Shown piece by piece: positions 1-23,850 of a DNA stretch of 63,842 nt; position 1 is the stretch's first letter, and each line of letters begins with the position of its first letter. The notes under the pieces were generated by a model. It made no database searches. It saw only the letters and a program-made list of their open reading frames with translations, and was not told the DNA's origin. The position numbers and the translations under genes are program-made. The stretch is from Clostridiales bacterium (GTDB lineage Bacteria > Bacillota > Clostridia > Oscillospirales > Oscillospiraceae), in NCBI GenBank assembly GCA_021202515.1, contig JAJQCW010000003.1, positions 1 through 63,842 of the forward strand. Direction: 5' to 3'.

Positions 1-104
1 AGCGGGGCGGGGGTGGTTCCCCTCCCTTTTAGGGGCTGCGGAATCTGCGGATAGCCCTTTTTAGGGTGTCACCTTTGTAACCTTTCCGGGGCTTGCCCCT
101 TTTT
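1..104. repeat. Left copy of ~104-bp direct repeat
   Basis: This stretch matches 12977-13081 almost base for base; the only differences I see are a 2-base indel near position 55 and a base change at the end. The copies are in the same orientation and 12,976 bp apart, so they bracket the plasmid-like module. The copy starts at the window edge and may extend further left. It contains two units of the paired-word array. Confidence 0.9.
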
Positions 105-445
105 AGGGCCTCCAGAATCTCCAGATAGCCGCCGTTTTCCTAGAAAATCCTAGTGCTGGAGCGGATTTCCCGCAAAATGTTAGTAAATGTTAGTATGCTT
201 TGCCGCTCATGTAGTAAAAAGTAGTAAATCGTTCTCCCATCTCTAAAAAAACATCTCAGGTTTTCTCAGGTTTTAGGTCAAGTTTTGTCAAGTTTTCGGT
301 CAACAAAAGTCAACATTTTGCTCTTTGTGGGTTCAACATTTTTCAACATTTCACATTTTGAGCGTCCTTTTTTAGGGCTGCCGAAACTGCCGGTTGCTTG
401 CTTTTAGGGCCTTACATTTCGGGTGATACCCTCTTTTAGGGTGTC
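1..445. repeat. Left paired-word repeat array
   Basis: No gene is seen here. The stretch is a chain of about a dozen units, many opening with TTTTAGGG, each followed by a 6-10-base word written twice with 2-4 bases between. Examples are CTGCGGAATCTGCGGATAG, CTCCAGAATCTCCAGATAG, GTTAGTAAATGTTAGTA, TCAGGTTTTCTCAGGTTTT and TCAACATTTTTCAACATTT. The word changes from unit to unit while the frame around it stays, which is unlike an ordinary tandem repeat. From 446 to 858 I see only scattered AT-rich and GC-rich sequence and no supported gene. Confidence 0.8.
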
Positions 446-858
446 CAGAATGTCCGGTTGCTGGTTCCCCTGCCGGGGTTGCCAATAAAGAAAGGGCCTC
501 CAGGTTGCCCGCCGGGTGCTGCTGATCCGCTCCGTGGGTCTCCCCTTGCCGGTAAAGGGAAATTGCCAAACGTTTGGCGGTTTCTCCGGGTGGTGCTTCT
601 ATATGGCATATCGGAAAAACGGCCTTTGTCGCGCTCCCTCCGGCTCTCTTATTATAGCATAGCCGCCCGCCGTCAAGTGGGGCGGCTGTGCTGGTTAATA
701 TAAATTGATGTCAATTTATATACGTTACCACAAAAACGGAACGCCTGTGTAATATCTTTTTTTTGCCTTTTTTCGCCCGGTAACTTCCTTTTATCGGCTT
801 TAATCAGCTTTGAAAGTTGCTGAAATAGCTTTTTTTGAGGGGTCAAAAAATTTTTTTT

Positions 859-2989: not shown

Positions 2990-3730
2990 TCATACCTCCA
3001 TGATTTTCTGATAAAGTGCTTTATAGTCCTGCGCCGGTTTGCTCTTTGGCGCATAGTCAAAAAGGCTCTGTTGTAAGGCCATAGCCTCCCGGATTGCTAC
3101 TCCGGCCCGGATTTCCCCTAACAGGGGTGCGCCGATGGCTGCGCCCTTCTCTTTAATGGTCTCCCGCAAAAAGCGGTTGATCCGGGGCCTCCGGTCATAC
3201 TTGGTTATCACTGTGCCGTGGATTTTTAGCCCGGTGTTCGTCTGCTGTATGTGGTGGGCTATGTCTGCAATCTGGTATAGGCCCTGTAAGCTGCTGCTGT
3301 CAGTCTCCAGGGGAATCAAAAGCCCGGTGGACGCATAAAGCGCATTATTTTGAAGCTCTCCCATAGCCGGGGCGGTGTCTATCAATACCAGGTCAAACGC
3401 CGGTAAAATAGGGGATAGCGCCCGCTCTAACCGCCTTGCGCTCCCCGGCCCGGTGCGGATCGCCGTTAGGTTCGCGCTGCCTCCCATCAAGAAAACGCCG
3501 CTCCCCGTGGCCTGTATCGCCGTTTCCGGGGCTGCCCCCTTTGCTATCAGGTCATAGCTGCCGGGGCGGTGTAGGTCTGCCCCTAACCAGATAGAAAGGC
3601 TGCTTTGTGGGTCAAGGTCAATCGCCAATATTCTTTTACCGGCTGCCGCTCCAGCCTGTGCCAGTGCGCCCGCCGTGGCGGTCTTGCCCGTTCCCCCTTT
3701 AATCGCCGCTGTGGTTATAACCTTCGTCAT
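2990..3730 (-). CDS. parA: ParA-type plasmid partition ATPase
   Basis: A 246-residue Walker-type ATPase that should move or position the element's DNA at cell division. The deviant Walker A motif KGGTGKTA lies at about residues 11-18, the A' motif region is LAIDLDPQSSLS, and Walker B is DLVLIDTAPAMG. The length fits small ParA/Soj proteins without an N-terminal DNA-binding domain. The start at 3730 is preceded by AGGGAGG, better than the ORF Met 18 bp upstream. The first gene of a three-gene operon (parA, RHH protein, rep), it has a dyad 60-100 bp upstream that may be its operator or centromere. Confidence 0.92.
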   Translation of the reverse strand: MTKVITTAAIKGGTGKTATAGALAQAGAAAGKRILAIDLDPQSSLSIWLGADLHRPGSYDLIAKGAAPETAIQATGSGVFLMGGSANLTAIRTGPGSARRLERALSPILPAFDLVLIDTAPAMGELQNNALYASTGLLIPLETDSSSLQGLYQIADIAHHIQQTNTGLKIHGTVITKYDRRPRINRFLRETIKEKGAAIGAPLLGEIRAGVAIREAMALQQSLFDYAPKSKPAQDYKALYQKIMEV

Positions 3731-3793
3731 AGCGTTTCCTCCCTTCACGCTTCTTGTACTAATAAGAACAGAGGTATAAAAGGCGTGGCCGAT

Positions 3794-4126: not shown

Positions 4127-5248
4127 TTATCCCGCCAGGGCCTCAGCGATTGCCGCCAACTGCTCCAACTGCGCCGGGGTCAGCCGCTGCAAGGTGCTGT
4201 CAATCTTCGTCCGGCTCCCGTCCTCCTGGTTCCCGTGGTACAGGTTATAGAGCTGCTGCGCCGTCTGCGCCTCCTGCTTCTCTGTGTCGGTATGTAAATA
4301 AATCTCCGTGGTGGCGGGGTTCGCGTGTCTCATGTATTTCTGCGTCTGGTATATATCGCCGGTCAGTTCCATGCAAGCTGTCCCCGCCGTGTGTCTCAGG
4401 CTGTGGGCGGTCAACCGGGGGCTGTTGTATCCCGCCTCTTGCATGGCCTTTTTAAGCATGGTGCTTATTGTGGTGGTGGCGATCCGCTGCCCTCTGGAGC
4501 GGTTGCCAGTAGAGACGAACAGGGGGCTTGTGCCTGTCGGGTGGTCTGTCCTGCTGTCCAGGTAGTCCCGGATGGCTGCCGCAACCTCCGGGGCCAGGGG
4601 CTTTTTCTGGTCGGGTTCTGTCCGGCCCTTGCCCCAAACGTATAACCAGGCTTGCCCGCCTTTGGTCTCCAGGTCTTGCACGTTCGCCCGGTGTAGCTCT
4701 ATCGTTCTCAAGCCCGCATTGATAGCTAAGAGGTACATAGCGTATAGGCGTTTTCCCTGTTCGGTGCTGCGCTGCACTCTCCCGGCCCTATCTTTATCGG
4801 CCTCCCCTGCTGCGGTGGTCTTTGCCGCCGCCCTGGTTGCTATGCTGTTCTCTACGTTCCGCGCCTCCTGCACTGTCAGCGCGTCTTTCTTGTGGTCGCT
4901 GTGGTCTACCTTTGGGGCGTGGACGTTTTCGGCTATGTTGGGGTAAATGCCGTTTGCCGCTGTCCATGCAAAGAACTGTTTGACGCTGCGCAAGTAGGCG
5001 GTCACTGTGTTGGGCTTCAACCCCTTGCCGGTCAGATAGTCCCTGTAAGAAATTATATCCTGTCGAGCGGGGCGGGCTGTCCCGGTCTCCTGCATCCAGC
5101 GCCCGAACGCCTTTAGGTTCTTGGTGTATGCCCGTGTGGTGGTCTCGCTGCGGTCAATCCATCTCACAAAGTCCATGAACAGCGGGGCGGTGATTTCCCG
5201 CGCCGGTTCCATCTGTTGGGCGGGGTAAATGGTGGCAAGTTCGTTCAT
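4127..5248 (-). CDS. Tyrosine recombinase (Xer/phage integrase family)
   Basis: A 373-residue site-specific recombinase. The N-terminal ~110 residues resemble a SAM-like core-binding domain. The catalytic domain shows the first Arg in NAGLRTIELH, the HxxR box in AHSLRHTAGTAC, the following His in MRHANPATTEIY and the Tyr in that last motif. A ~40-residue C-terminal tail after the catalytic Tyr is unusual and contains TPAQLEQLAAIAEALAG. The start overlaps the upstream small gene by ATGA. In a plasmid-like module this enzyme probably resolves multimers or drives integration; it is distinct from the integrase at 20234. The family call is firm, the substrate site unknown. Confidence 0.9.
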   Translation of the reverse strand: MNELATIYPAQQMEPAREITAPLFMDFVRWIDRSETTTRAYTKNLKAFGRWMQETGTARPARQDIISYRDYLTGKGLKPNTVTAYLRSVKQFFAWTAANGIYPNIAENVHAPKVDHSDHKKDALTVQEARNVENSIATRAAAKTTAAGEADKDRAGRVQRSTEQGKRLYAMYLLAINAGLRTIELHRANVQDLETKGGQAWLYVWGKGRTEPDQKKPLAPEVAAAIRDYLDSRTDHPTGTSPLFVSTGNRSRGQRIATTTISTMLKKAMQEAGYNSPRLTAHSLRHTAGTACMELTGDIYQTQKYMRHANPATTEIYLHTDTEKQEAQTAQQLYNLYHGNQEDGSRTKIDSTLQRLTPAQLEQLAAIAEALAG

Positions 5249-5476: not shown

Positions 5477-5505
5477 ATTATAGACTGTTCTTTTTCTTTT
5501 GTCAA
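5477..5505 (-). promoter_or_regulatory. Sigma-A promoter of the recombinase operon
   Basis: On the minus strand a consensus TTGACA (5505-5500) is followed after exactly 17 bases by TATAAT (5482-5477). Transcription would start near 5470 and read the 62-residue gene, the recombinase and probably the 82-residue gene. This is the strongest promoter match in the island. Confidence 0.85.
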
Positions 5506-5620
5506 CGGGTTTTATACTTCTTGTGCAGATTTTGAAAGGCGGGGGTATATCCCCCTCCCCCTCCCCGCTGCTGTTCTTCACGCCGTCACTGGGAATAATT
5601 TCACGCGCCCGTTTCTAGGC

Positions 5621-5990
5621 AATTCTTCGCAATTCTTCGGGCAACCTTCGGGCTATTTCCTTCAAGCAATTTCAAGCAATTAGAAGCAATTCACGCCATT
5701 AAAAAAGAGGCTCCCGGATTGCTCCGGGGGTCTCTCTTTATTGGTTTTCCTGTTCGTGCGTGTATAACGATGTCCGAAAACTGCCCTCCCCTCCCCTGCC
5801 GCTCCAGGTGGCGGGGCTGTCTGTTTTCCGCTCTGGAGCGGGTTTATAGCCCTCTGTGGGCCTCCTGAAACGCTTTTGAAACGGGGTAGGGGTGGAGGGT
5901 GAAACGGCCTGAACCGCCATAGAAACGCCGTGAAACGGGGCTAGAAACGGCCTGAAACGGCCTTTGAAACGCTGCGAAACGCCGGTTGGA
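5621..5990. repeat. Short-word repeats in the 5.4-6.0 kb gap
   Basis: The gap from 5506 to 5995 has no supported gene. At 5621-5697 words such as CAATTCTTCG, CAACCTTCGGG and TTCAAGCAATT are repeated side by side. At 5867-5982 the hexamer GAAACG occurs nine times in about 115 bp with irregular 4-17-base spacers. Both belong to the same side-by-side word style as the arrays at 1-445 and 12.9-13.4 kb. Confidence 0.7.
5701..5738 (-). terminator. Intrinsic terminator of the membrane-protein operon
   Basis: A GC-rich stem (AGAGGCTCCCGGA against TCCGGGGGTCTCT) is followed on the minus strand by TTTTTT. It would end transcripts running through the 5996-7375 genes about 260 bp after the last stop. 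Confidence 0.7.
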
Positions 5991-5995
5991 ACGGG

Positions 5996-6949
5996 CTATT
6001 GCTCCCCTCCCTCCTGTTGCCTTGCCAGCCGCCAAACCTTCGTTTTGTTCGTCCCAAACGCTGCCGCCGTCTCCTGGTAGCTGTGGCCCGCCTCCAGGTA
6101 GGCCAGTATTGCCGCCTCCTGGTTTTCCTCTGCCTCCTGCGGCCTCCACGTTTCGGCTTCTTTCCGGTATCTGCGGGCCTGATCCTGTGCCTCCCTTAAC
6201 TGTGTTTCCAACCTGTCCCGCTGCCGTGTAACGCTTTCAAGTTCTTCTGTGTTGTCCGCCCGGCAAATCGCCGTTTGCCTCCATTCTTCGCCCTCATCCT
6301 GGGCGGCCTTCAAATCCTTCTTTAGTCGGTCAACCGTTTTCTGCTGCTTCTCCATCCCGTGAACCAGGGCCAGCAGATAGACGGCTTTATATGCCCTGTC
6401 AATCTCTGCTTCGTTTACCTCCATGTTTAACGCCTGGTGTAGCAGCGCCCTTGTTTGGCGGCATCCGTTCCGCTCCCATTCCTGCCCGGCCTCCCATTCG
6501 CCGCCGTGGGCAAGGTGAGAAAGAACTTCGTCAACCTCTGGGGCCTGGAGGACTTGCCAGGATAATAACCAGGGCTTGCGCTTCCACCATGCCAGGGCCA
6601 GCAGCGCCGCGCCCAACAGGGCCAGACAAAACCGCCCGTAAAAGGATAACCACGCAAGGGCAACGGCACACAATACCAGGGCAAGGCCAGCAGCAGCGCA
6701 AAACCGGGTTGCCGGGGCCAGGACGTTATAAAACACGCCGCCGGGGTTCAGGGCCAGAACCAACAGCAGCAGCAGAACCAGGCACCACGCAAAAGCCGCC
6801 GGTTCCGCTCCCCGCTCCCCCAACGTGAACAGGGTAAACAGGGGAATACAGGCTATGATCTCCCGCCAAAAGTAGCGGGCCAGACGAAACCAGGGGAAAA
6901 CCCACGTTTGCGCCCATTCCTGCGCCCGGTCAAGTATCGCCCAAACCAT
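5996..6949 (-). CDS. Membrane-anchored coiled-coil protein with C-terminal HTH
   Basis: A 317-residue protein I cannot place in a named family. Residues ~30-125 contain about four hydrophobic segments, including a long Leu-rich stretch and ALLALAWW. Residues ~175-275 are charged and heptad-like, predicting a coiled coil. The last ~35 residues (AAILAYLEAGHSYQETAAAF followed by TNKTKVWRLARQ) match a homeodomain-like helix-turn-helix. A membrane anchor, stalk and DNA-binding head could tether element DNA to the membrane or act as a membrane-bound regulator; this is inference. The ribosome site is weak and the gene starts 2 bp after the preceding stop, suggesting coupled translation. Last gene of a small-membrane-protein operon. 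Confidence 0.65.
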   Translation of the reverse strand: MVWAILDRAQEWAQTWVFPWFRLARYFWREIIACIPLFTLFTLGERGAEPAAFAWCLVLLLLLVLALNPGGVFYNVLAPATRFCAAAGLALVLCAVALAWLSFYGRFCLALLGAALLALAWWKRKPWLLSWQVLQAPEVDEVLSHLAHGGEWEAGQEWERNGCRQTRALLHQALNMEVNEAEIDRAYKAVYLLALVHGMEKQQKTVDRLKKDLKAAQDEGEEWRQTAICRADNTEELESVTRQRDRLETQLREAQDQARRYRKEAETWRPQEAEENQEAAILAYLEAGHSYQETAAAFGTNKTKVWRLARQQEGGEQ

Positions 6950-8552: not shown

Positions 8553-8948
8553 TCATACTTCCATCCCGAAAAGTAAATCATCAAGCGTCTGGTTTGACTT
8601 TCGCGCCGTCCGTTCTCCAGCCTCCAGCCGGTCAGCGAACCGCCCGGCATTGTCCAGAATCATTTTCGCCGCCTGGAGGCGGGTTCCCGCTCCGGCTTCT
8701 TCGTCTTGCATGATTTCCGCTATTGTCTCTATTGCCGCCGCAAGCTGCCGGTTCAGGTGGTTCACGGCATCCCGCACAATGTCACTTTTGGCGGTCTGGT
8801 ACGCCTCCTGAAATTCGGGCTTTCTCATTCTGTCGTATATGGTACGCGGGGCCAGCCCGCAAGCGGTGGCGGCTGCTGCTACGCTCCCGCTACTCATCAA
8901 GGCGGCTATAACCTGTTCATCGCTTACCGCCGTTTCCTTCTGTCCCAT
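8553..8948 (-). CDS. HTH protein resembling small terminase/phBC6A51-type
   Basis: A 131-residue mainly helical protein. Residues ~10-50 form a helix-turn-helix of the insertion-element/terminase kind (VIAALMSSGSVAAAATACG then LAPRTIYDRMRKPEFQEAY). The remainder is helical and ends NQTLDDLLFGMEV. This layout is seen in phage small-terminase-like or phBC6A51 HTH proteins, here without a large terminase or capsid genes nearby. The start at 8948 has GGGAA nine bases upstream; a GTG three codons earlier has poor spacing. Probably a DNA-binding accessory gene of the element. Confidence 0.6.
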   Translation of the reverse strand: MGQKETAVSDEQVIAALMSSGSVAAAATACGLAPRTIYDRMRKPEFQEAYQTAKSDIVRDAVNHLNRQLAAAIETIAEIMQDEEAGAGTRLQAAKMILDNAGRFADRLEAGERTARKSNQTLDDLLFGMEV

Positions 8949-9064
8949 GTGCTTCACTTCCCTTTAGGGGCCATATCCCCCTTTTGAATTTCGCGTTTTT
9001 GTCTGTAGGGTTGGGCTGCGGTCTTTTAGGGGGCGGGGCTAGAGATTTTACCTCCCCCTACCCC

Positions 9065-9349
9065 CTATTTGGTGGGCAGCGTCTCCAGCGTTTTCAAACA
9101 GGCCCGCCGGGTCTTATGGATTTCTCCGGCCCGGTGGTAGAGGCTCCTACAAAAGCCCTCCATTTCCTCCCGGTTCGCCGCTAAGAAATAGCCGGGGTTT
9201 GCGCCGGTGCTGGAACAAATGGGCTGCCCTTCCCGCCGCTCCAATTCTACGGCTGCGGTCAAGGCTCTGGGGCTGATCCGCAACATGGAACAAAGTTCCC
9301 GGCTGCTTTGGGCGTTCTCTGCGCCCGTCAATAATACTTCGTGTATCAT
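9065..9349 (-). CDS. Winged-helix phage accessory protein
   Basis: A 94-residue protein starting MIHEVLLTGAENAQSS, with a predicted winged helix (ELCSMLRISPRALTAAVELE and a wing ICSSTGANPGYFLA) and a helical tail rich in Arg and Lys. Similar proteins sit in replication clusters of Firmicutes prophages; I know no experimental function. I start it at 9349, after GGAGG placed ~13 bases upstream, because the longer ORF (to 9487) is out of frame with the well-formed 53-residue gene that occupies that stretch. Confidence 0.65.
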   Translation of the reverse strand: MIHEVLLTGAENAQSSRELCSMLRISPRALTAAVELERREGQPICSSTGANPGYFLAANREEMEGFCRSLYHRAGEIHKTRRACLKTLETLPTK

Positions 9350-9369
9350 GGTGCTGTGCTGTGCCTCCG

Positions 9370-9531
9370 TTACTGCTGCTGTTGGTCTTTGGGTTCTTCG
9401 TCCTGCTGCGCCTGCTGCTGCGCTGCTTTCTTTGCCCAATACCGCTGTTGGTGTTCTTTCACTCTGTCGGGGTGCTTTCGCGCCCATTCCCGCTGATATG
9501 CCCGCCGCGCTGCCTTTGCTTCATCCGTCAT
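9370..9531 (-). CDS. 53-residue phage-type charged peptide
   Basis: A short gene with GGAGG eight bases before the ATG and its own promoter upstream. The product begins MTDEAKAARRAYQREWARKH and continues PDRVKEHQQRYW before a Gln-rich end. Small proteins of this type (RAYxREWxRKxPDxVxxYxxRYWxKK) recur in clostridial prophages; the role is unknown. It heads the run of phage-like genes down to 8105. Confidence 0.7.
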   Translation of the reverse strand: MTDEAKAARRAYQREWARKHPDRVKEHQQRYWAKKAAQQQAQQDEEPKDQQQQ

Positions 9532-9661: not shown

Positions 9662-10016
9662 TCCGTTTGACTTCATTCGACAACATTCGACTTGTTTCGA
9701 TTTTCTTCGACTTCATTCGACAAAATGAGCGGTTTTCGCCGGTTTTTTCAAGTCTGGAGCGGGTGCGGATTGCCGATAAAGAGGGGTTTCCCCTGTACAA
9801 AAAAAGAAAGTCGAGCGGGTATTCCTCCCCGCAAAAATCATTTTTTAGAGGCGGCCCGGTTTGCTAGGCCCCCTTTCCGTTGTCTGCCTCCCCGTTTCAG
9901 GGGGTACTATAGGGGGCGGGGGTGCGCCCTGTTCCATGCGCTGCATGGTTCCGGGTTTTAGGGATTGCCCCTAACAAGCGTTTTTGTCACACAAAAACAT
10001 TGCTTGCCAGGTAGTG
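9662..10016. repeat. Non-coding gap with TTCGA word repeats and hairpins
   Basis: No gene is supported between 9619 and 10057. At 9667-9721 the words TTCGAC and TTCATTCGACAA recur side by side, again in the paired-word style of this module. At 9980-9998 there is a perfect hairpin GTTTTTGT CAC ACAAAAAC flanked by AAGC/GCTT. Confidence 0.6.
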
Positions 10017-10556: not shown

Positions 10557-12638
10557 TCAACCTCCAATCTTGCGCCCGGCTTTTTTGGGCTTCGTGGTGG
10601 TTTCTTCAAATTCAAGAACCGGCCTAAAGAGGTCATTTGCCGGGTAGTATTCAAAGCTGCAACTGTAGCTTGCAATCCCATAGCGGTTTTTCAGGCAAAC
10701 AAGGTCAATGCTCCGGGGGTTCTTCGCCTTTTCCTCCTGCACTATGGCCCGCTTCTCTTTAAGGGCGTTCTGCTTATCAAAAACCGGGTCAGCCTCCAGG
10801 CAATGGAGCTGTAGGCCCCAAACAACATCCGCTGTGTATTCAACGGCTCCCGATTCTTTGAGGGCTTCAAAGCTAATCGGGGTCAGGTAGTTGGCCCGGT
10901 TCACGCTGCTAATGGCAATGACGGTCAAGCCCAATTCCCGGCTCATCCGCTTTAGCTGCGTGGTGGTTTCGTCTACAACTTCCTTTGTGGTCTGCCGCCG
11001 CCCGTTCCGTTCCTCCGGCTGCAATATCTGGAGGTAGTCCAGGAAAACAACCGGCTTAACGCCGTTTCGGGCTATGTATCGCCTGATATAGTCGCTTATC
11101 GTGGTAATGCTGCAATCAAGGTTCGATTCTACAATGGAAATTCTGTCCCCCATCCGCTCCTGATATTCTTTAGCGGCCTCTTTGACGTGGGCGGGCAAGT
11201 AGCCCCTGCGGATAGAGAGGGAAGTAACCGCCGTTTCAAGGTCTTTCTGCGCCGTCATTCGGGCCAGGCTCTTTGTCACCATTTCAAGGCGACTCTGCTC
11301 CAGGCTGAAATACAAAACATCGTTCCCGGCTGCCGCTATTTGGTCGGCCATTTGGTGGCAAAAGGTGGTTTTGCCCAAACTGCTGATTGCCGCCACAACG
11401 TAGAGGCCAGCATAAAGCCCGCCGCTCTTTTGGTCGAGATTGACATAGCCGGTTTTCACGTCTGCCCGGAATTTTTCAATCTCATCCCCCATCATGTGAG
11501 AGATATAAAAGGCGGTGTTGTCCGGCTTGCCGCTGTTCTGCGCTTTCGCCGTTTTCACGGCCTCCATAAAGCCCGGCCTGTCATGGGTCAAAAATTCGTT
11601 CGCGTCCTTGTACTTCTCGCAAATATCAGCGACAACAAAGGAAATTCCCAAACGGGTTAAACCGGCCTCCAGCTTCTGCCGCTGATCCTTAACCCGCTTC
11701 GCGGTCTCCGGGTCGGGGTCGTTATCAAAGGCCAGGAACAAAGTTGCCTCTGTGCGCCGCTTCTCCAGCAGTTTTAGAAGCGCCTCCCCGTTGGTGGTGC
11801 TGTTGAGGGCGATTGCCGGGGTTTCGGCCTCTAAGATAGAGAGGGCATCAAAGGCACCTTCGACAACAAAAACCTCTTTCACGCCTTGCGAATACAGGGC
11901 TTTCCAGTTAAAAATACCAGGGTGCGCGCCCTTGTTGTTCATCTTGCGAAACTGCGGGGCGGTTTTGGGGTCGATGGCCCGCCCGATATAGTGTGTCGGG
12001 CTTGTCGGAATAATAATCCGCTGTGTGGGGTGGTTCGCGTCTGCTGGGTCTGCTTTGGGGTCGTACCCTACCCAATAGTCCCGCGCCGTGTCAATGCTTA
12101 TTCCCCGGCCTGTAAGATAGGCAACCGCCGCCGGGTCGTTCAACCGGTTTCTGCACGTCTCAAAATAGGGGGTCAAATCGCGGCTTTGCTCTGTGGCGGC
12201 TTGTGCGGCCTCCTGTGGGCTTTTCCGCTCCGGTGGTGCTTGTGTATTACCTTCCTCTTGAAACGCTCTTGTAGGGGCTTGTACGGGGTCATTTTTCGGG
12301 GCTGTGGGCTTGTTGCTGTCAATGACAATTCCCAATTCGCCCGCTAGGTTCGTCAAGGTCTCGGAATACCCAAAATCGGGGTACACGGCCCGGAACAGGT
12401 CAATAATGTCCCCGCTGAAACCACAACCGAAACACTTTAGCCCGTTGCCGTCCTTGCTGCGGGGGTTCCGGGTCAGTCCGTCCCCGCTGCCGTTGCCGCT
12501 GCTTCCCGTCCCGTGTCCACAAATGGGGCATACCCAACTTTTTTCCGCGTTTACTCGCGTTTTCGCCGGTTCAGTCAGATAGGGAATAATCTCCCTCCAG
12601 CGGCTTCTAACCTCTGCTAACGCTGCTGTCCTATCCAT
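10557..12638 (-). CDS. Primase-helicase, Twinkle/T7 gp4 type
   Basis: A 693-residue bifunctional replication protein. The N-terminal CHC2-like zinc finger is WVCPICGHG plus CFGCGFSGDIIDL (about residues 36-80). A TOPRIM primase domain follows, with VFVVEGAFDALSI (the Glu motif) and LFLAFDNDPD (acidic motif). The C-terminal RecA-like DnaB helicase domain has Walker A AAISSLGKTTF and Walker B VVFLDYLQIL. Fusion of primase and DnaB helicase in one chain is typical of phages and plasmids. The start follows GGGGAGAAAGGAA. Its leader contains two tiny overlapping ORFs and an antisense RNA candidate, suggesting post-transcriptional copy control. Confidence 0.92.
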   Translation of the reverse strand: MDRTAALAEVRSRWREIIPYLTEPAKTRVNAEKSWVCPICGHGTGSSGNGSGDGLTRNPRSKDGNGLKCFGCGFSGDIIDLFRAVYPDFGYSETLTNLAGELGIVIDSNKPTAPKNDPVQAPTRAFQEEGNTQAPPERKSPQEAAQAATEQSRDLTPYFETCRNRLNDPAAVAYLTGRGISIDTARDYWVGYDPKADPADANHPTQRIIIPTSPTHYIGRAIDPKTAPQFRKMNNKGAHPGIFNWKALYSQGVKEVFVVEGAFDALSILEAETPAIALNSTTNGEALLKLLEKRRTEATLFLAFDNDPDPETAKRVKDQRQKLEAGLTRLGISFVVADICEKYKDANEFLTHDRPGFMEAVKTAKAQNSGKPDNTAFYISHMMGDEIEKFRADVKTGYVNLDQKSGGLYAGLYVVAAISSLGKTTFCHQMADQIAAAGNDVLYFSLEQSRLEMVTKSLARMTAQKDLETAVTSLSIRRGYLPAHVKEAAKEYQERMGDRISIVESNLDCSITTISDYIRRYIARNGVKPVVFLDYLQILQPEERNGRRQTTKEVVDETTTQLKRMSRELGLTVIAISSVNRANYLTPISFEALKESGAVEYTADVVWGLQLHCLEADPVFDKQNALKEKRAIVQEEKAKNPRSIDLVCLKNRYGIASYSCSFEYYPANDLFRPVLEFEETTTKPKKAGRKIGG

Positions 12639-12670
12639 AGAATTTTTCCTTTCTCCCCGCTCCTGCGGGG

Positions 12671-12700
12671 TTGTCAGATCGTCCGGCAGCGTGTTAGAAT
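12671..12700 (+). promoter_or_regulatory. Promoter of antisense RNA 4
   Basis: TTGTCA (12671-12676), an 18-base spacer and TAGAAT (12695-12700) face away from the primase-helicase gene. They lie just upstream of that gene's ribosome site. Confidence 0.55.
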
Positions 12701-12706
12701 AATGCT

Positions 12707-12787
12707 GCCGTTTGGGTGCTGTGCTGGTTCCTTACGGTTGAGCGGTTCCCCGTCCTGCTGCTTTAGGGGTTCCGCTCATTCTTTTTT
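12707..12787 (+). ncRNA. Candidate countertranscribed antisense RNA at primase-helicase 1
   Basis: An ~81-nt RNA is predicted from the promoter at 12671-12700 to a strong intrinsic terminator: GAGCGG TT CCCC pairing with GGGG TT CCGCTC (12740-12777), then TTTTTT at 12782-12787. It is antisense to the leader of the primase-helicase mRNA, covering two short leader ORFs. This resembles antisense control of plasmid Rep expression (for example CopA/Tap in IncFII), but sequence homology is not claimed. Confidence 0.5.
12732..12779 (-). CDS. Possible leader ORF 2 (15 residues)
   Basis: The ATG overlaps the stop of leader ORF 1 (ATGA). It encodes MSGTPKAAGRGTAQP and ends about 90 bp before the primase-helicase start. 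Its coding strand forms one arm of the antisense RNA terminator. Real translation is plausible because ORF 1 has a good ribosome site. Confidence 0.35.
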   Translation of the reverse strand: MSGTPKAAGRGTAQP

Positions 12788-12799
12788 GTGTAGGGTCAT
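12776..12799 (-). CDS. Possible leader ORF 1 (MTLHKKE)
   Basis: A seven-residue ORF preceded by GGGAGG at a good distance, in the primase-helicase leader. Leader peptides of this size regulate Rep synthesis in several plasmid groups; here it is an inference from layout. Confidence 0.35.
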   Translation of the reverse strand: MTLHKKE

Positions 12800-12899
12800 T
12801 GCCTCGCCTCCCTTCGTGTGCGGTATTCGGTGGTTTCCGGCAGCACTTTTTTTCTCCCGGTGTTTCCGCTCCGATTTTGCTCCGGTTTTGCTCCATCGT

Positions 12900-13395
12900 G
12901 GCCCCTTTTTAGGGTGGCCGATTTGGGCGGATACTCTGTGTGTGAATTGGCGCTGGACGGCTGGGGGTCGCCCTGGAGCGGGGCGGGGGTGGTTCCCCTC
13001 CCTTTTAGGGGCTGCGGAATCTGCGGATAGCTCCCTTTTTAGGGTGTCACCTTTGTAACCTTTCCGGGGCTTGCCCCTTTTCAGGGGCCAGAAATGCCAG
13101 GATAACGGCCTTTTTTGTGTGACTTTTGAGTTACTTCCCTTTTAGGGTGTTAGAAATGTTAGGATAGCCGCCCTTTTAGGGCCTCGCAAATCTCGCAATG
13201 CCCCTTTTTCTGTGTTCATTTTCATGCAAAATCTGCATTTTAGGGCCTGACAAATCTGACATTTCCCCTTTAGGGCCTCGGATTTCTCGGTATGTCTCCC
13301 TTTTTAGGGCCTCCAGAATCTCCAGATAGCCGCCTTTTTAGGGCCTTACAAACCTTACCTTTGCGGGGTCAATCCTTCGAGCAACCTTCGGGCAA
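12900..13395. repeat. Right paired-word repeat array
   Basis: The gap from 12800 to 13408 holds no supported gene. From about 12900 some twelve units follow, most opening TTTTAGGG. The duplicated words differ each time: CTGCGGAATCTGCGGATAG, GCCAGAAATGCCAGGATA, TGTTAGAAATGTTAGGATAG, CTCGCAAATCTCGCAATG, CTGACAAATCTGACATTT, CTCGGATTTCTCGGTATG, CTCCAGAATCTCCAGATAG and CTTACAAACCTTACCTTT. The word is new in each unit but the spacing and the AAT/ATAG frame recur. Confidence 0.85.
12977..13081. repeat. Right copy of ~104-bp direct repeat
   Basis: This is the second copy of the sequence at 1-104, same orientation. It marks the right limit of the plasmid-like module and could be the recombination point between a plasmid and the island. 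Confidence 0.9.
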
Positions 13396-13408
13396 TTCTT
13401 CTTCTGCG

Positions 13409-13606
13409 TTAGTCCTTCCCGGTAAGTCCCTTCAAAAACGGGTCGGCCGGGTCTGTGGCCGGGGGTTCCTCCGGTTTCCCTTTGCCGGTCAGCCCGGAAA
13501 GAAAAGCGTCCGGTTTTTGGGGCGGCTTTTCGGCGGTTTGCGCGGCCTTTTCCGCCGCCGCCTGTTTCTGCTCACACAGCAGTTTCAGTTTCTCAGCCTC
13601 GGTCAT
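13409..13606 (-). CDS. Small protein with duplicated FLxGLTGK motif
   Basis: A 65-residue protein starting MTEAEKLKLLCEQKQAAAEK, with an Ala-rich helix and then two copies of a short motif, DAFLSGLTGKG and DPFLKGLTGKD, separated by a Pro-rich linker. The motif pair could be a docking peptide for a partner, for example a beta-clamp or Rep-type protein; that is a guess. I use the ATG at 13606 (GGAGG nine bases upstream) over the GTG at 13615. It directly follows the 161-residue coiled-coil gene. Confidence 0.55.
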   Translation of the reverse strand: MTEAEKLKLLCEQKQAAAEKAAQTAEKPPQKPDAFLSGLTGKGKPEEPPATDPADPFLKGLTGKD

Positions 13607-13611
13607 GTTGT

Positions 13612-14097
13612 TCACCTCCGAAACTCTTTTCGGGCGGCCTTCACCACCCGCCGGGCGGTGCTGTTGCAGGAAATACCCACCTTGCCCCCGGCTTTTCGGG
13701 CCAGCCGGTCAGCGCGGGAAATGTCGCTGTCAAGGGCGGCGCTGATTGCCTCCATCTGCTCCAGCAGCGCCCCGATTTTCGCGGCGGCGGCGGTTTCAGC
13801 CTCCGAGACCTGTTCCCGGAGCGCCTGCACAAGCTGATATTTCCCGGCGACCTCGCCCCGGCTCAGCGCGTCCAGGCGTTCCCGCACAAGCTCCACGGTC
13901 TTTTGTGCGGCGTCCCGCTCCGTCTGAGCGGCCACCAGCGCGGCCCCGTCCAGGGCGCTTTTTGCCGCTGCCTCCTTCTCCTCTGCCGCCGCCAGGTCGG
14001 TTTTCGCCGCCGCCAGGTGCTGAGACAACAGGCTGATTTGCCCGTCCCGCTCTGCTACGGCCTCGTTTACCTTGCGTTCCAGTTCGTCAAAATTCAT
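13612..14097 (-). CDS. Coiled-coil protein of unknown function
   Basis: A 161-residue protein dominated by Ala, Glu and Gln heptads over residues ~1-125 (a segment beginning MNFDELERKVNEAVAERDGQ), so probably a long helical coil. It has a basic C-terminal tail (STARRVVKAARKEFRR). The ribosome site AAGGA lies seven bases before the ATG. It is expressed with the 65-residue gene downstream. Many phage-satellite islands carry such scaffold-like coils, but I do not recognise this one. Confidence 0.6.
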   Translation of the reverse strand: MNFDELERKVNEAVAERDGQISLLSQHLAAAKTDLAAAEEKEAAAKSALDGAALVAAQTERDAAQKTVELVRERLDALSRGEVAGKYQLVQALREQVSEAETAAAAKIGALLEQMEAISAALDSDISRADRLARKAGGKVGISCNSTARRVVKAARKEFRR

Positions 14098-14169: not shown

Positions 14170-14258
14170 GAGCTGAACCTTTGCCCGTTTTTGGCGAGGG
14201 GGCGGCCCACGAAATGAGCTGAATCTCTGCTAATCAGGCGGGGAGGCGGCTCATTTTT
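14170..14258 (+). ncRNA. Candidate countertranscribed antisense RNA 3
   Basis: An ~89-nt RNA is predicted from the strong promoter to a weaker terminator, ATGAGC pairing with GCTCAT (14214-14254) and then TTTTT. It is antisense to the gap between the sigma-like gene and the coiled-coil gene, and overlaps the last bases of the sigma-like gene. It has the layout of antisense RNAs 1, 2 and 4 but no shared sequence. Confidence 0.4.
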
Positions 14259-14970
14259 CTGTGTCGCCGTCTTGTTCCAGCCGTTCCCGATGAACCACCG
14301 CCCCCTCCACCGCATGAACCCCATGCAGCCCGTAAAAGTCCGTCCGGTCGTCCAGGAACTGTCTCAGCGCCCGGTTGACTTTGGGCCTTCTCAGGGTTTT
14401 AAGCGCCTGGTTCTCCACTCTGCGAACGGCGTTAGCGTCCACGCCCAGGGTGTCCGCTGTGGCCTGGTAGGTCTGGCCCCGGAGGTAGCGGGACCGGATC
14501 ACCGCCTGTTCTGCCTCTGTCAGCGTGTCCAGCAGCGCATCAACAGCGCCTTGAAGCTGTTCCAGGTACACCCGCCGCTCTGCGTCTGCTATCAAATCAG
14601 GCCCCGGCACCGCATCGGCCAGGGTGTCCCCCTCCGGGTCGTCCCACGATAGGGGAGTGTCCAGGCTGGCCGCGTTCTGGAGCGGGTCCCGCTTGGAGGT
14701 ACGCACCCCCAGCGCCTCGGAGAAGGCCGTTTTCAGGTACAGGCCATACCAGGTGATAAACTTCCCCCGTTCCGGCTGGTAGGTCTCACAGGCCCCGTAC
14801 AGGGCAAGGAATCCGCTCTGTACAAGGTCTTGCGCGTCGTCCAGCCGCTCCCATGCTCTGGCCCATCGGCCCGCCTCTTTCCAGACAAACCGCTCCACCG
14901 CCTCCCACAGAGGCAGCAGCGCCTCCCCGTTTCCCCGCTGGACCTCCAGCGCTAAATCCTCGTTTGACAT
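14251..14970 (-). CDS. Sigma-70 family RNA polymerase sigma factor
   Basis: A 239-residue protein with an apparent sigma region 2 (DAQDLVQSGFLALYGACETY and an ITWYGLYLKTAF segment) and region 4 helix-turn-helix (EAEQAVIRSRYLRGQTY then ATADTLGVDANAVRRVENQ). It probably redirects RNA polymerase to element promoters, a common device in phage and ICE late control. The start at 14970 has GGGGAGGG eight bases upstream; the longer ORF upstream runs through the frameshifted small gene and is not used. It stands between that broken gene and antisense RNA 3. Confidence 0.8.
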   Translation of the reverse strand: MSNEDLALEVQRGNGEALLPLWEAVERFVWKEAGRWARAWERLDDAQDLVQSGFLALYGACETYQPERGKFITWYGLYLKTAFSEALGVRTSKRDPLQNAASLDTPLSWDDPEGDTLADAVPGPDLIADAERRVYLEQLQGAVDALLDTLTEAEQAVIRSRYLRGQTYQATADTLGVDANAVRRVENQALKTLRRPKVNRALRQFLDDRTDFYGLHGVHAVEGAVVHRERLEQDGDTEK

Positions 14971-15062
14971 TGCCAAACCCTCCCCGACATGGTAGAATAA
15001 AGCAACGATTGACCGTATACCATGCCGGGAAAGGGCGCTGTCCAGAGTGGGCGGCGCTTTTT

Positions 15063-15271
15063 TCAGTCCTCCCGGTCCGCCAAACTCGCGTTGATACTGT
15101 CCAGTTGATACTGTCCAACTGCACCAGCAGATCATCCAGGGCTTGCACTGCGCACCGGCAGCCACTCCACCAAGCGCACACTTCACCAAAACAGTGAACG
15201 TAATTCGTGTTGCTCCCAAAGTGGGACATCAGCGGGCAGATGGGCAGCTTTTCCGTTTCTTCATTGTGCAT
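15063..15271 (-). pseudogene. Frameshifted small Cys-rich phage protein
   Basis: The gene starts at 15271 after GGAAAGGAAGG and encodes MHNEETEKLPICPLMSH, then VHCFGEVCAWWSGCRC, a Cys-rich (probably zinc-binding) phage-type protein. A 14-bp tandem duplication at 15090-15117 (GTTGATACTGTCCA twice) shifts the frame. Removing one copy restores an ORF ending LDSINASLADRED and a stop at 15063. As it stands translation would run on to 14786 in the wrong frame, over the sigma-factor start. The duplication is perfect, so it is recent or a sequencing/assembly artefact. Confidence 0.65.
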
Positions 15272-15453: not shown

Positions 15454-17961
15454 TCAGGCGGAATAGTGGGAATTTCCCCCGTAATAGGGGAGATTTTCGC
15501 ACCTTGCAGCGGGGTCTAATTTTACCCCCATCCAATACTTCTTGCCCTTTGGGGTGGTTCTGCGGAACCCAGCAGCCTCCATCGCGGCGTTGAACTCGGT
15601 AGCCCTCCGGGGAAATTCCCCGTTACCTTCGGCCCACTCCCGATAAACCTTGAAAAGTTCACTGGCGGGAACTCTCATCTGTGGGTTTTGCTTGTCTACG
15701 ATACACCGCTCGGCCAGGAAGTTGTTGAGCCAGTCCTCCCGCTCCCGGTATGCCTCGGTAGCCTCCGCCACCGCATCGGGGATGTCCAGCCGGAACCCGT
15801 TACGGACGAACCGCACCGCGCCCTCAATGGCCCAGGCCAAAATCGCGCCTCCGGCCTGCGTTGCCAGCACATCGGCGTAATTCTGCACCCCGCTCCCGGC
15901 GGGGATCACCGCCTGAAAGGGGACCACCAGCAGCCGCCGCCAGGTGCCGTTGTCGGTGCTGCCCACGCGGGGCAGGTGGTTGGTGAACAGCACCAGAGTG
16001 TGGGTCTGCTTCACGGTTTCCGGCTGGTGGTACTTTTCCTCAATCACCAGGGTGTCGGTGCTGGCCAGCTTTTTCAGCGTCGCCACGGAGAGCCGCTGGT
16101 GTTCCTCCAGCTCCCCGGTGACAACCAGGCGTTTCCCCCGGAGGCTTGCCAGGGACGCGCCCCGGTTTTGCCGCTCGGTGGTCAACACCTGAATGTCAAT
16201 GCTGCCGGAGTAGTCCCCCAGCACCCGGCCCAGGGCGTTAAAGAAGGTCGATTTGCCGTTGCGCCCGCCGCCGTAAGCGATGACGATTCCCTCCTGATAC
16301 ACCGCGCCGATAAGGGCCATCCCCGCCACAGCCTGGAGGAACCGGGCCACGTTGATGTCGTTTTGCGTGACGGTGCGGAGGAAGTCTTGCCACTGTTCCG
16401 CGCCCTGGTTGCCGGGGCTGGCCTCGGTGATCTGACTGCAATGGGCCTCTCGCTCATGGGGCCGGAGCCGCCCGTCTGTCAGGTTGACGATACCCGCCGG
16501 GGTGTTCAGGTCGAAGGGGTTCGCGTCCAGCTTGTCCGCCGGGAGTACCAGCGCGGGCCGGGCCAGCTCCAGCATATTTTTCAGCCGGGCAGCACCCCGG
16601 AGGTTTTTGGCGTGTTTCAGGTAAGCCGCCGCCTTTTTCGCCTCCGCTTTCGCGTCCTCAAACCGGGCCTTGTCCCCGTCGTCGCCGCTCTCGTTCCACT
16701 GGGCCTGAGCGTCCGCCTGGGCTGCCAGGGCCTCCCGGTTGCGCCGCCCCGCGTCTTTCAGCATCCGCTCCGACAGCTCGATAGCCCAGGTCAGGGCCTT
16801 GTGGTCGCTGCGTTCCCACCGCTGGCCATTCCACCACAGCCAACCCAGCGCGTCAACGTAGATCAGGCGGCCCCGGTAGTGGGCGACGAACACCTCCGCG
16901 TTGCCCGCGTCGGAGAGGTCGGGAGGTTTGACCGGCGGCCCGTCCTCTGGGATGTCCCGTTTTGGAGCGGGGGGAAGGTCGCTTTGAACGCTTTCCATTT
17001 TGGAAACAGTTCGTTTTACCGGCCCCGGAGCGGGGGAGAAGCTGCCCCGCGGCTCATAGACCTGGTTGCAGCCTTCAATGGCCTTTTGGATGGTAATGGC
17101 TCCGTAAGTGGTGCCAGCCTGTCGCCGGTCCCACTTCTCCCGCATCAAACCGGAGCGGCGAAAAAGAGTATCCATCCGGGCCGCGTCCCGGCCAGTCCAG
17201 AAGGCCAGCAGATTGCAGAGGGCCAAATCCGCCTCCGAATCGGAGCGGAACCCGGACTTGTCCCCGCTCCACAGGGCAGAGAACCGCGCCCCGTTTTTGG
17301 CGTTTCGCGCCCGGCGCAGCAGGGCCTCATCGTCCAGCGGGTCAGCGGGGCCAGCGGGGACCGGCGGTGGAGGGGGTAACGAACCGTTACCCTTACTCCG
17401 CACCATGTACCGCTCTGCGATCTCCAATACGGCGGCGCTCCGTTCCTCCACGGGCAGGTCGAAGGGCCAGGCCGCCCCGGTAAAGGTCATGTACCGGTTC
17501 GTCTGCCCCGCTATGTAGACCTCAACGCCGTTTTCCGGGTTTTTCAGGTAGAAACGGGCCTTGTCCCATTGCAGCCCAGGGGCGCGGAACAGGATATGAA
17601 CCCCGGTGCCAGAGGGGGAAATCTCCGTATAGCTGGCCATCCGGTCAATGATGTCCATTGCCAGGTCGGAGGGCACCAGCGCGCCGCCCTCCCCTGTGGT
17701 CAAACAGTGGTCGATGTCGATTGCACACAGGGCGTCGAACAGGCCCAGCCCCAGCCCGGTATAGCCCCGGTTCACCAGGGCGTTACAGGCGGAGGGGTAG
17801 TCGGTGAAGGTGTTGGGGTCGTTGCTTTTGGCTCCGCCGCCGGTGCGGGGGTTGATGGGGACTTTCGTTGGTCGCCCGGCCCGCTCCTGGAGCTGCCAGC
17901 AGCACCACCGGGCCGCCTCCAGCCCGGCGGGGAGGGTTGGTGTCGTGGGTGTTTGGGTCAT
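15454..17961 (-). CDS. P4-type primase-helicase (AEP-like primase plus D5/SF3 helicase)
   Basis: An 835-residue replication protein. The N-terminal ~200 residues look like a bifunctional primase/polymerase domain, with the acidic motif CAIDIDHC and the following TEISPSGTGVHI. A middle linker is rich in Pro. The C-terminal ~400 residues have the D5/P4 helicase organisation, with Walker A GGGRNGKSTFFNAL and downstream motifs GKRLVVTGELEE and LFTNHLPRV. Such proteins melt the origin, prime and unwind in P4-like satellites and integrative elements. The start at 17961 has GAGG upstream; the ORF begins 32 codons earlier. Two small genes and an antisense RNA candidate precede it in its operon. Confidence 0.9.
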   Translation of the reverse strand: MTQTPTTPTLPAGLEAARWCCWQLQERAGRPTKVPINPRTGGGAKSNDPNTFTDYPSACNALVNRGYTGLGLGLFDALCAIDIDHCLTTGEGGALVPSDLAMDIIDRMASYTEISPSGTGVHILFRAPGLQWDKARFYLKNPENGVEVYIAGQTNRYMTFTGAAWPFDLPVEERSAAVLEIAERYMVRSKGNGSLPPPPPVPAGPADPLDDEALLRRARNAKNGARFSALWSGDKSGFRSDSEADLALCNLLAFWTGRDAARMDTLFRRSGLMREKWDRRQAGTTYGAITIQKAIEGCNQVYEPRGSFSPAPGPVKRTVSKMESVQSDLPPAPKRDIPEDGPPVKPPDLSDAGNAEVFVAHYRGRLIYVDALGWLWWNGQRWERSDHKALTWAIELSERMLKDAGRRNREALAAQADAQAQWNESGDDGDKARFEDAKAEAKKAAAYLKHAKNLRGAARLKNMLELARPALVLPADKLDANPFDLNTPAGIVNLTDGRLRPHEREAHCSQITEASPGNQGAEQWQDFLRTVTQNDINVARFLQAVAGMALIGAVYQEGIVIAYGGGRNGKSTFFNALGRVLGDYSGSIDIQVLTTERQNRGASLASLRGKRLVVTGELEEHQRLSVATLKKLASTDTLVIEEKYHQPETVKQTHTLVLFTNHLPRVGSTDNGTWRRLLVVPFQAVIPAGSGVQNYADVLATQAGGAILAWAIEGAVRFVRNGFRLDIPDAVAEATEAYREREDWLNNFLAERCIVDKQNPQMRVPASELFKVYREWAEGNGEFPRRATEFNAAMEAAGFRRTTPKGKKYWMGVKLDPAARCENLPYYGGNSHYSA

Positions 17962-18017
17962 AGATACCTCGCTTTCCAGTCGGACAGGGAAGGCCCCGCC
18001 CGGCGTTGGGATTTTGG

Positions 18018-18200
18018 TCAAAGGGCTGCGCCCTCCCGCTCTTTGCGTCCCGCCCATTTGAGGGGGATGACCTTGCCGCTGGTGTCCGTATAGGCAGGAA
18101 CCCCCGCCAACGTCTCCGCCAAATCTGCCAGCCGTTTCAGCCCCAGGGCGTTAAGCCGCTGAATGTTGCGGGCCAACTGTTCCAGTTCAACGGTGTTCAT
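18018..18200 (-). CDS. 60-residue helical protein
   Basis: A small gene with GGGAGG before its ATG, overlapping the preceding gene by ATGA. The product starts MNTVELEQLARNIQRLNALG, is mainly helical, and ends with a basic tail (WAGRKEREG). It lies just ahead of the P4-type primase gene and is probably co-expressed. Function unknown. Confidence 0.6.
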   Translation of the reverse strand: MNTVELEQLARNIQRLNALGLKRLADLAETLAGVPAYTDTSGKVIPLKWAGRKEREGAAL

Positions 18201-23292: not shown

Positions 23293-23850
23293 ATGAAAAT
23301 ATTTACCATCATTGGCGGCGTCAACGGCGCGGGGAAAAGCTCGCTGACCGGCGTCCTCAAGGGCCAACGGAAAGACCTGGGCATCGTCATTGATGGGAAC
23401 AAAATTGCAGCGACAAAGGCAGGTGGGGACAACCTAAAGGGCGGACGAATCGCGGTGCGGCGCATCCAGGACTGCCTGGACAAGGGCATCTGCTTCACCC
23501 AGGAGACGACGCTCAGCGGCTTCACCACCGCGAAGCGGGCCTCCGCCGCCGGGTATCATATCCGCTTGTTTTATGTGGGCCTGGACAGCCTGGAGGAGAA
23601 CCTCCAACGCATCGAAAACCGGGTGGCCCACGGCGGCCATAACATCCCCACCGACACGGTCAGGCGGCGCTTTTCCTCCCGGTGGAGCGCTGTGGCGGAC
23701 GTGCTGCCCTATTGTGACGAGGCGATGTTCTACGACAACTACAACGGCTTTGTCGAGGTGGCGGAGTATCGCAACGGGGAACTGCTGCTGAAAGGGGATT
23801 ACCGCCCGGCCTGGGTGCTGGAGCTGCAAACATACCTGGTGGGACAATAA
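23293..23850 (+). CDS. Zeta-toxin-like P-loop kinase
   Basis: A 185-residue ATPase/kinase with Walker A GGVNGAGKSSL (residues ~8-18) and an overall layout like the zeta-toxin/UDP-GlcNAc kinase-like family, including ETTLSGFTTAKRAS and an Arg-rich lid (RIENRVAHGGHNI). Zeta toxins phosphorylate UDP-activated amino sugars. No epsilon antitoxin is found beside it, so it could be a housekeeping zeta-like kinase or rely on an unlinked partner. Strong terminator directly downstream. Confidence 0.75.
   Translation: MKIFTIIGGVNGAGKSSLTGVLKGQRKDLGIVIDGNKIAATKAGGDNLKGGRIAVRRIQDCLDKGICFTQETTLSGFTTAKRASAAGYHIRLFYVGLDSLEENLQRIENRVAHGGHNIPTDTVRRRFSSRWSAVADVLPYCDEAMFYDNYNGFVEVAEYRNGELLLKGDYRPAWVLELQTYLVGQ

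Follow-up and report, generated by a model that had tools for sequence, protein, structure and literature searches.

The window, that is, the whole stretch of DNA analysed, comprises the first 63.8 kb of a contig (C60, 178,077 bases) of a 2.6-Mb genome. What looks like an integrated element occupies roughly the first 23 kb of the window, with integrase and replication genes as a phage satellite would have (Table 1). No match to capsid, tail, portal or large-terminase proteins was found among the element proteins scanned, which were part of the ORFs of an element inside which the contig ends. The element is larger than a typical satellite. Relatives of its primase-polymerase are found in Clostridiales, Oscillibacter and Flavonifractor records, and the host probably belongs to these bacteria.

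Two arrays of short paired words were mapped. The primase-helicase gene and the gene at 13612-14097 flank array 1, and array 2, a partial copy of array 1, lies at the contig end (1-460). The original prediction had placed the feature at 12900..13395 only, a limit that the second array removes.

Table 1. Genes of the element and units of the two arrays (positions in the window)
Feature	Position	Strand	Basis
ParA	2990-3748		protein scan
Tyrosine integrase	4127..5248	-	Pfam Phage_integrase
Small TerS-like HTH protein	8553..8957	-	PHROG 2538 terminase small subunit, E 3.3e-11; Pfam: weak HTH matches only
Primase-helicase fusion (DnaB_C, Toprim), adjoins array 1	10557..12638	-	domain matches
Sigma-factor-like protein	14251..15219	-	domain matches
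NrS-1-type primase-polymerase/helicase (NrS-1 HBD, D5_N)	15454..18057	-	domain matches
Array 1, degenerate type-A unit, CCGCCC / TCGGCC (4/6 equal)	12901..12930	-	by eye
Type-A unit, CCGCAG / CCGCAG	12997..13026	-	site scan
Type-A unit, GGTTAC / GGTGAC	13031..13060	-	site scan
Degenerate type-A unit, CCTGGC / TCTGGC, frame CTGAAAAG	13072..13101	-	by eye
Type-A unit, CCTAAC / TCTAAC; 27 exact bases in common with L151 terS	13134..13163	-	site scan + match
Type-A unit, TGCGAG / TGCGAG; 27 exact bases in common with L003 and L080 terS	13168..13197	-	site scan + match
Type-A unit, TGTCAG / TGTCAG; no match in viral scan	13232..13261	-	site scan
Type-A unit, ACCGAG / TCCGAG	13262..13291	-	site scan
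Type-A unit, CTGGAG / CTGGAG	13296..13325	-	site scan
Type-A unit, GGTAAG / TGTAAG; no match in viral scan	13330..13359	-	site scan
Array 2, type-A unit, CCGCAG / CCGCAG, copy of 12997-13026	21..50	-	site scan
Type-A unit, GGTTAC / GGTGAC, copy of 13031-13060	53..82	-	site scan
Type-A unit, CTGGAG / CTGGAG	95..124	-	site scan
Type-B pair, TCCTAG / TCCTAG; 16 bases identical in terS of L355, L361	138..153	+	strand from terS
Type-B pair, AAATGTTAGTA; core present in one terS (L350)	175..195	+	strand from terS
Type-B-like pair, GTAGTAAA; in three other arrays, in zero terS genes	211..228	.	pair scan
Type-B pair, minus-strand reading AACCTGAGAAAACCTGAG; 20 exact bases in common with L284 terS	254..274	-	match
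Type-B pair, minus-strand reading AAAACTTGACAAAACTTGAC; within terS in 11/19 viral stretches	277..296	-	viral scan
Type-B-like pair, GTCAACA / GTCAACA	299..315	.	pair scan
Type-B pair, minus-strand reading AAATGTTGAAAAATGTTGAA; near vB_SauS_277g terS site (ATGTTGAAGAATGTTGAA)	332..351	-	comparison
Type-A unit, CCGGCA / TCGGCA	364..393	-	site scan
Type-A unit, CCGGAC / CTGGAC	428..457	-	site scan

Other repeats were observed in the element. Iteron-like repeats of GAAACG with a period of 10-11 (5866-5990) lie beside the gene of a 317-aa HTH protein. In L118, a locus with a relative of the primase-polymerase, CGTTCA repeats with a period of 11 (6535-6650) lie beside a homologue (58% identical) of this HTH gene, and the protein and its adjoining repeat word may have changed together between the two. 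TTCGAC words in a row at 9669-9735 (period 10) are iteron- or centromere-like, and a 21-bp repeat of 3.5 copies (859-953) is found beside array 2, upstream of the gene for a 563-aa protein (954-2645). A CAATTCTTCG-like motif is repeated at 5619-5684 and 13367-13402, the latter being the edge of array 1. Finally, a small protein of PHROG 2113, perhaps the product of a common satellite gene, is encoded at 9065-9487 of the window as well as in L309 (4827-5255) and L342 (7785-8159).

Layout of the paired-word units

The units share one layout, in which the frame TTTTAGGG is followed by a word, a short AT-rich spacer and the identical word. Pairs of at least six exact bases with a period of 9 or 10 were counted against 2000 dinucleotide shuffles. 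We found 7 in 12900-13395 (shuffle mean 0.39; 0/2000 reach 7) and 11 in 1-460 (mean 0.32; 0/2000 reach 11). With counts so far above the shuffles, the array described in the original prediction, with its frame kept and its word varying, does exist and is not a product of chance; the search expression given there recovers 6 units within 12900-13395 and 3 more in 1-460 (4 when a first gap of zero is allowed).

The full site was defined as words equal at 5/6 bases or better, with an AT spacer and a CTAAAA-like frame. Scanning for it gave eight units of this kind (type A) in array 1 and five in array 2, every one of the 13 in minus orientation, with a single match outside both arrays, at 23593, and a mean of 0.2 matches in block-shuffled windows. 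Two further, degenerate type-A units of array 1 were recognised by eye. The figure of "about twelve" units first proposed takes in degenerate units (8 scanned, 2 by eye). Array 2 also contains seven period-10 pairs, the majority of them without the TTTTAGGG frame. The type-A units are uniform in orientation but the type-B units of the window are mixed, and a fixed packaging direction was dropped as an argument.

Among 248 other 500-bp segments of the window, the top counts were 6 (at 5501), 5 (5251) and 5 (9251). These were rejected as similar arrays, since the counts stem from one word repeated. A blastn search of 12640-13600 against plasmid and phage collections gave zero matches.

Matching sites inside phage terS genes

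Outside the two arrays, the genome itself contains a single match, of 92% over 37 bases, in a gene read as terS, and the next gene reads as the large terminase. The reversed frame was found in 69 stretches of viral sequences, and by eye 68 of these are TerS-like in frame around the site, the exception being L025. Three of the 68 (L012, L057 and L075) are divergent copies with an upstream stop codon, and L023 is cut at the locus end. One TerS-like protein from these stretches belongs to PHROG 309, terminase small subunit. The word pairs in terS resemble those of the array, for example TCGGAC-ATT-TCGGAC and TGCGAG-ATT-TGCGAG. The unit at 13168-13197 shares its 27 exact bases with prophage-type terS on another contig of the same genome (L003, contig C9) and in a congeneric genome (L080), and 26 with L169; a further congeneric terS, L087, shares 12 exact bases only and is 88% identical over 34.

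A second TerS type was reached through the period-10 unit AAACTTGACAAAACTTGAC, which occurs in 19 viral stretches. In 11 of them (two with an identical gene sequence) it lies in frame in terS, where its codons read NLTKLD, and in 8 it does not. A homologue of this type-B TerS found by similarity is annotated as Terminase_2 (PF03592). Four further pairs were scanned as predictions: ATGTTAGTAAATGTTAGT occurs in 5 viral stretches (one terS, L350, and one array, L348), TCCTAGAAAATCCTAG in 11 (two in terS), TGTAGTAAAAAGTAGTA in 19 (three arrays, zero terS) and GTMAGRTTTGTMAGGCCNTAAAA in none, so that matches in terS or arrays make up 2/5, 2/11 and 3/19 of the stretches and the fourth scan is empty. 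No clear word pair of the array form was found inside the TerS-like gene of the element itself (8553-8957).

For the comparisons that follow, the terS loci were the best 80 of 408 relatives for type A and the best 80 of 591 for type B. HMM alignment of the 80 type-A loci from the protein-level search gave 62 distinct sites; for type B, 71 distinct sites were counted. The peptide patterns used for retrieval (EALKKGK and NLTKLD) overlap the site, and the amino acids there are a biased sample; the synonymous tests below are independent of this bias.

The site makes up 1.0% of the terS-locus DNA in type A and 1.4% in type B. The longest match of the window arrays falls on it in 29/62 type-A loci (0.5 for shuffled arrays) and in 7/71 type-B loci (0.6), and all 17 matches of at least 15 bases are on the site (14 type A, 3 type B; 0 off site). 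Four other clostridial arrays place their longest match on the site in 38/62 type-A and 22/71 type-B loci, with 20 matches of at least 15 bases on the site and 1 off. Arrays of Streptococcus satellites do so in 21/71 type-B loci (long matches 11 on, 0 off) but in 9/62 type-A loci only (3 on vs 7 off), which fits arrays made of type-B sites. The terS genes of 80alpha and 277g have no exact 11-base match with the window arrays, and FP_Lugh reaches 11.

Within terS, the agreement of the two words was compared with synonymous-codon permutation, which keeps the protein sequence. In type A, the third word base is equal in 53/62 sites vs 27.8 expected (0/2000 permutations reach 53), and in 40 of the 49 distinct word pairs vs 21.7. 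Where both codons are four-fold degenerate, it is common to the two words in 22/29 distinct pairs. The sixth word base of type A has no significant excess (48 vs 46.8; 353/2000). In type B, whose two words stand in different codon frames, 338/426 letters agree vs 294.0 under permutation (0/2000). Dealing the second words among the sequences gives 250.7 (0/5000), and moving the second word by 1-4 bases lowers the agreement to 31-115. The word pair within terS is a DNA-level feature beyond the requirement of the protein, with the constraint seen at the third base in type A and over the whole words in type B, and it is this site that the array units match.

The choice of word goes with residues of the TerS helix-turn-helix. 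In type B, the second word begins with two bases that track the residue preceding the N/L position (E with CC, 50/53; Q with CT, 5/7; R with GT, 5/5; K with AC, 5/5; T with GA, one sequence). In type A, a word-final C accompanies R at one position near the recognition helix (18/18), and G accompanies other residues there (39/44); kinship among the sequences inflates the counts of both types. On our reading, these residues would lie in or beside the recognition helix. At the level of sequence, then, array units match terS sites, and the words covary within terS beyond protein needs and track HTH residues.

Among named phages, an exact pair was found at the site in 80alpha, Page, FP_Lugh and 277g, and 6/7 bases agree in IPP8; it is absent from A500, EcoM-689R2, Javan266, IPP15 and 20617. 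PM1, which had been read from another start, was set aside. A terS fragment of ASZ22RN contains a preferred pac region, according to PMC12323379, yet no pair of the array form is present. For SF6, PMC4737164 reports that isolated HTH domains of TerS bind pac DNA weakly, with no clear sequence preference, and by eye a matched pair was not seen at the corresponding spot in the mutagenic primers given there. How TerS binds DNA is still described as unclear and controversial in a review (PMC9611059). For two TerS types, the sites compared here point to a rule at the sequence level: a word in two direct copies, one helical turn apart, that track HTH residues.

Several known kinds of repeat were considered for the array and rejected. 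Iterons and tandem repeats are, like the array, noncoding direct repeats about one helical turn apart, but iterons repeat one word; here the words change with each unit, only the two copies agree, and the units match phage terS, which also argues against a slippage product. A coding repeat was rejected because the array is intergenic and type-B words pair across codon frames. CRISPR arrays similarly carry short units in a row that mirror different phages, whereas the present array always matches one site of one gene. The unit layout, without constant repeats alternating with unique spacers, rejects a CRISPR array or CRISPR-like guides, and no cas family was found among the window proteins scanned.

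Arrays in other genomes and in satellites

The frame pattern matched in 9 of 300 genomes of the family. By eye, noncoding sites are present in five (G000, G278, G002, G115 and G138), a lone one in G269, and sites inside terS in G000, G278 and G219; the matches in G024 and G135 are in an enzyme gene and were set aside as chance. G278, with array units or sites, has a primase-polymerase 91% identical to that of the window, G002 has array units or lone sites, and one unit of the G115 array keeps a longer terS remnant (L086). In G138 the array lies on a contig of 7.8 kb that encodes an integrase, an XRE-like regulator, a helicase and primase-like, nuclease-like and DnaJ-like proteins (6/7 ORFs scanned), and G082 has a similar element with one site. 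A lone type-A site, not an array, was mapped at 4817-4846 of L342, in a satellite-like element of another genus.

Of seven loci with relatives of the primase-polymerase, L118 contains array units. The site scan found none in L119-L124 (one chance-like match in L124), and no array was seen in the region beside the sigma or polymerase gene of L120-L123, which was also read. Similarly, the site scan gave no array in the primase-helicase relatives L108-L111, and among close relatives of the L309 helicase L343-L345 have no site and L342 has one.

Two scans with window words reached arrays in four viral contigs (L369, L373 and L378, of 9-12 kb, and L348). The array of L373 has matches in 26 records, every one a named Streptococcus satellite phage, and these matches lie in the part adjoining the integrase. 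Eight of these satellites were tested; six (Javan225, 641, 265, 222, 201 and 416), together with 2/2 viral contigs, have more pairs than all 500 shuffles each (3-9 pairs), whereas Javan70 (1 pair; 42/500 shuffles) and Javan286 (0) have no array signal, 6/8 not being a prevalence since the eight were drawn from records matching the L373 array. The array-bearing relatives are thus either named satellites (by annotation for Javan225 and Javan641) or compact integrase-regulator-primase elements (G138). Related satellites differ by blocks of whole units, which some have and others lack between flanks that align. This gain or loss of units as wholes, together with the agreement of the terS words beyond the needs of the protein, supports the selection for a matched pair that the original prediction had offered as one of two possibilities.

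Ten terS stretches of Streptococcus phages were compared with ten arrays. In five (Javan264, Javan231, TP-778L, Javan383 and Javan633) the best exact match is 16-20 bases long and starts at position 112-116, that is, at the word pair; the others (Javan202, Javan266, IPP15, 20617 and IPP8) have no match of 14 bases or more. The remainder of two satellites (about 9 kb each) reaches 10-14 bases against the terS stretches. Over all pairs, the maximum for shuffled arrays was 12-16 in 20 runs, and because they reach 16, a match of 16 bases rests on its position and not on its length. Two of three co-resident prophage and satellite pairs (Javan231/232 and Javan264/265) share a 20-base site, and Javan202/203 have no common site. 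The shared sites were also found in satellites of other strains, so the match does not require co-residence. The Javan264 site is identical in satellites although its own two words match poorly. In Javan231, Javan264 and Javan383 the deposited terS start is downstream of the site, which was read in the open frame before it.

A probable set of packaging sites and its alternatives

We consider it probable, at roughly three in four, that the array consists of pac-type sites for recognition by TerS, one per helper specificity, for packaging by many phages, and that the element bearing it is a phage satellite or a derivative of one. The likely binder of the pair is the TerS of a helper phage, in place of a protein of the element or in addition to one. 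Each unit would correspond to a site of the kind present within the terS of a different phage. Upon infection by a helper or its induction, the TerS of that helper would bind the unit with the word that it reads, the two helix-turn-helix domains contacting a direct repeat about one helical turn apart. The large terminase would then cut near the bound unit and satellite DNA would fill the heads of that phage, so that many words would make the satellite usable by many helpers. We infer TerS binding, cutting and packaging, as well as the upkeep of the set for helper range, from the comparison of sequences. Some of the phages involved may be of the cos type, where the TerS site alone would be insufficient.

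In the simplest view, each unit would serve one class of helper TerS as a start for packaging of the satellite. The SaPIs, phage-inducible islands and Streptococcus satellite phages also have integrase, regulator and primase or replication genes and are packaged by a helper, and the small array-bearing relatives resemble phage satellites in that structural genes were not found in them. In some satellites there is a cos site that the TerS of the helper reads (PMC12597102), and two putative cos sites are described in a satellite of Streptococcus thermophilus (PMC13376191). Here, in contrast, many different TerS-type sites stand in a row, for two TerS types, in one element. In P22 and the staphylococcal pac phages pac also lies in terS, and in SPP1 at the start of terS; the P22 site spans 22 bp of the gene, and sets of direct repeats are part of SPP1 pac (PMC9611059, PMC4737164). 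Neither the matched pair of period 9/10 nor the covariation with the HTH appears in the parts of these descriptions consulted, and the array copies are outside any terS.

The main alternative is a decoy array, whose units would titrate the TerS of many phages and hinder their packaging, with no role in that of the element. The matches between units and terS are equally expected for a decoy, the mixed orientation of type-B units would be irrelevant to it, and interference of satellites with helper packaging, by Ppi, is known (PMC12597102). Still, we regard it as unlikely. There is mostly one unit per word, which argues against a pure decoy, since titration favours many copies of a single word; moreover, array-bearing elements need packaging for their spread, and elements with a single site exist (L342).

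Alternatively, the units could be sites for the element's own DNA-binding proteins in replication, partition or regulation, with words diversified in the array and terS matches inherited from a shared ancestral site. ParA, sigma-like and TerS-like proteins are indeed encoded in the element, and there are iteron-like repeats near an HTH gene (5866-5990). But a single protein needs no dozen different words, and the words track those of foreign TerS proteins, which makes this very improbable. Unselected remnants, that is, pieces of terS acquired by recombination with prophages and drifting in intergenic DNA, are slightly less credible again. The longer terS remnant beside a unit in L086, the degenerate units and the partial duplication of array 1 by array 2 would suit them, but fragments kept by chance should span any part of terS, whereas most units are just the 20-30-base site, for two TerS types, in many elements and genera, with the words matched. 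Finally, a local process (slippage or template switching) that writes a functionless word twice has next to no weight: it would give words that vary in a constant frame, but type-B words in terS form pairs although their codon frames differ, and the pairing persists under coding constraint, the association of HTH residues with words already disfavours it, and the local word copying first proposed is unnecessary because units can come from phage terS by capture or be brought into agreement with it by selection.

The packaging-site reading is of a kind already partly known, because mimicry of a single packaging site by satellites has been described (PMC12597102). The earlier statement that no described element has this form holds for the array as such: in the literature searched, which did not include most subscription papers, we found no description of a satellite with differing TerS sites in an array, nor of the paired-word rule. 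By a small balance of probability, we further propose that the packaging signals in satellites of Firmicutes form a library that can be updated, with a 20-30-bp unit per TerS specificity, in which the arrays would record past and present helpers and the residue-word code would be readable. If true, one satellite would ride on many unrelated phages and not be bound to one helper. If the arrays work in this way, reading an array would predict the helpers of a satellite, and networks of satellites and helpers would become testable from genomes.
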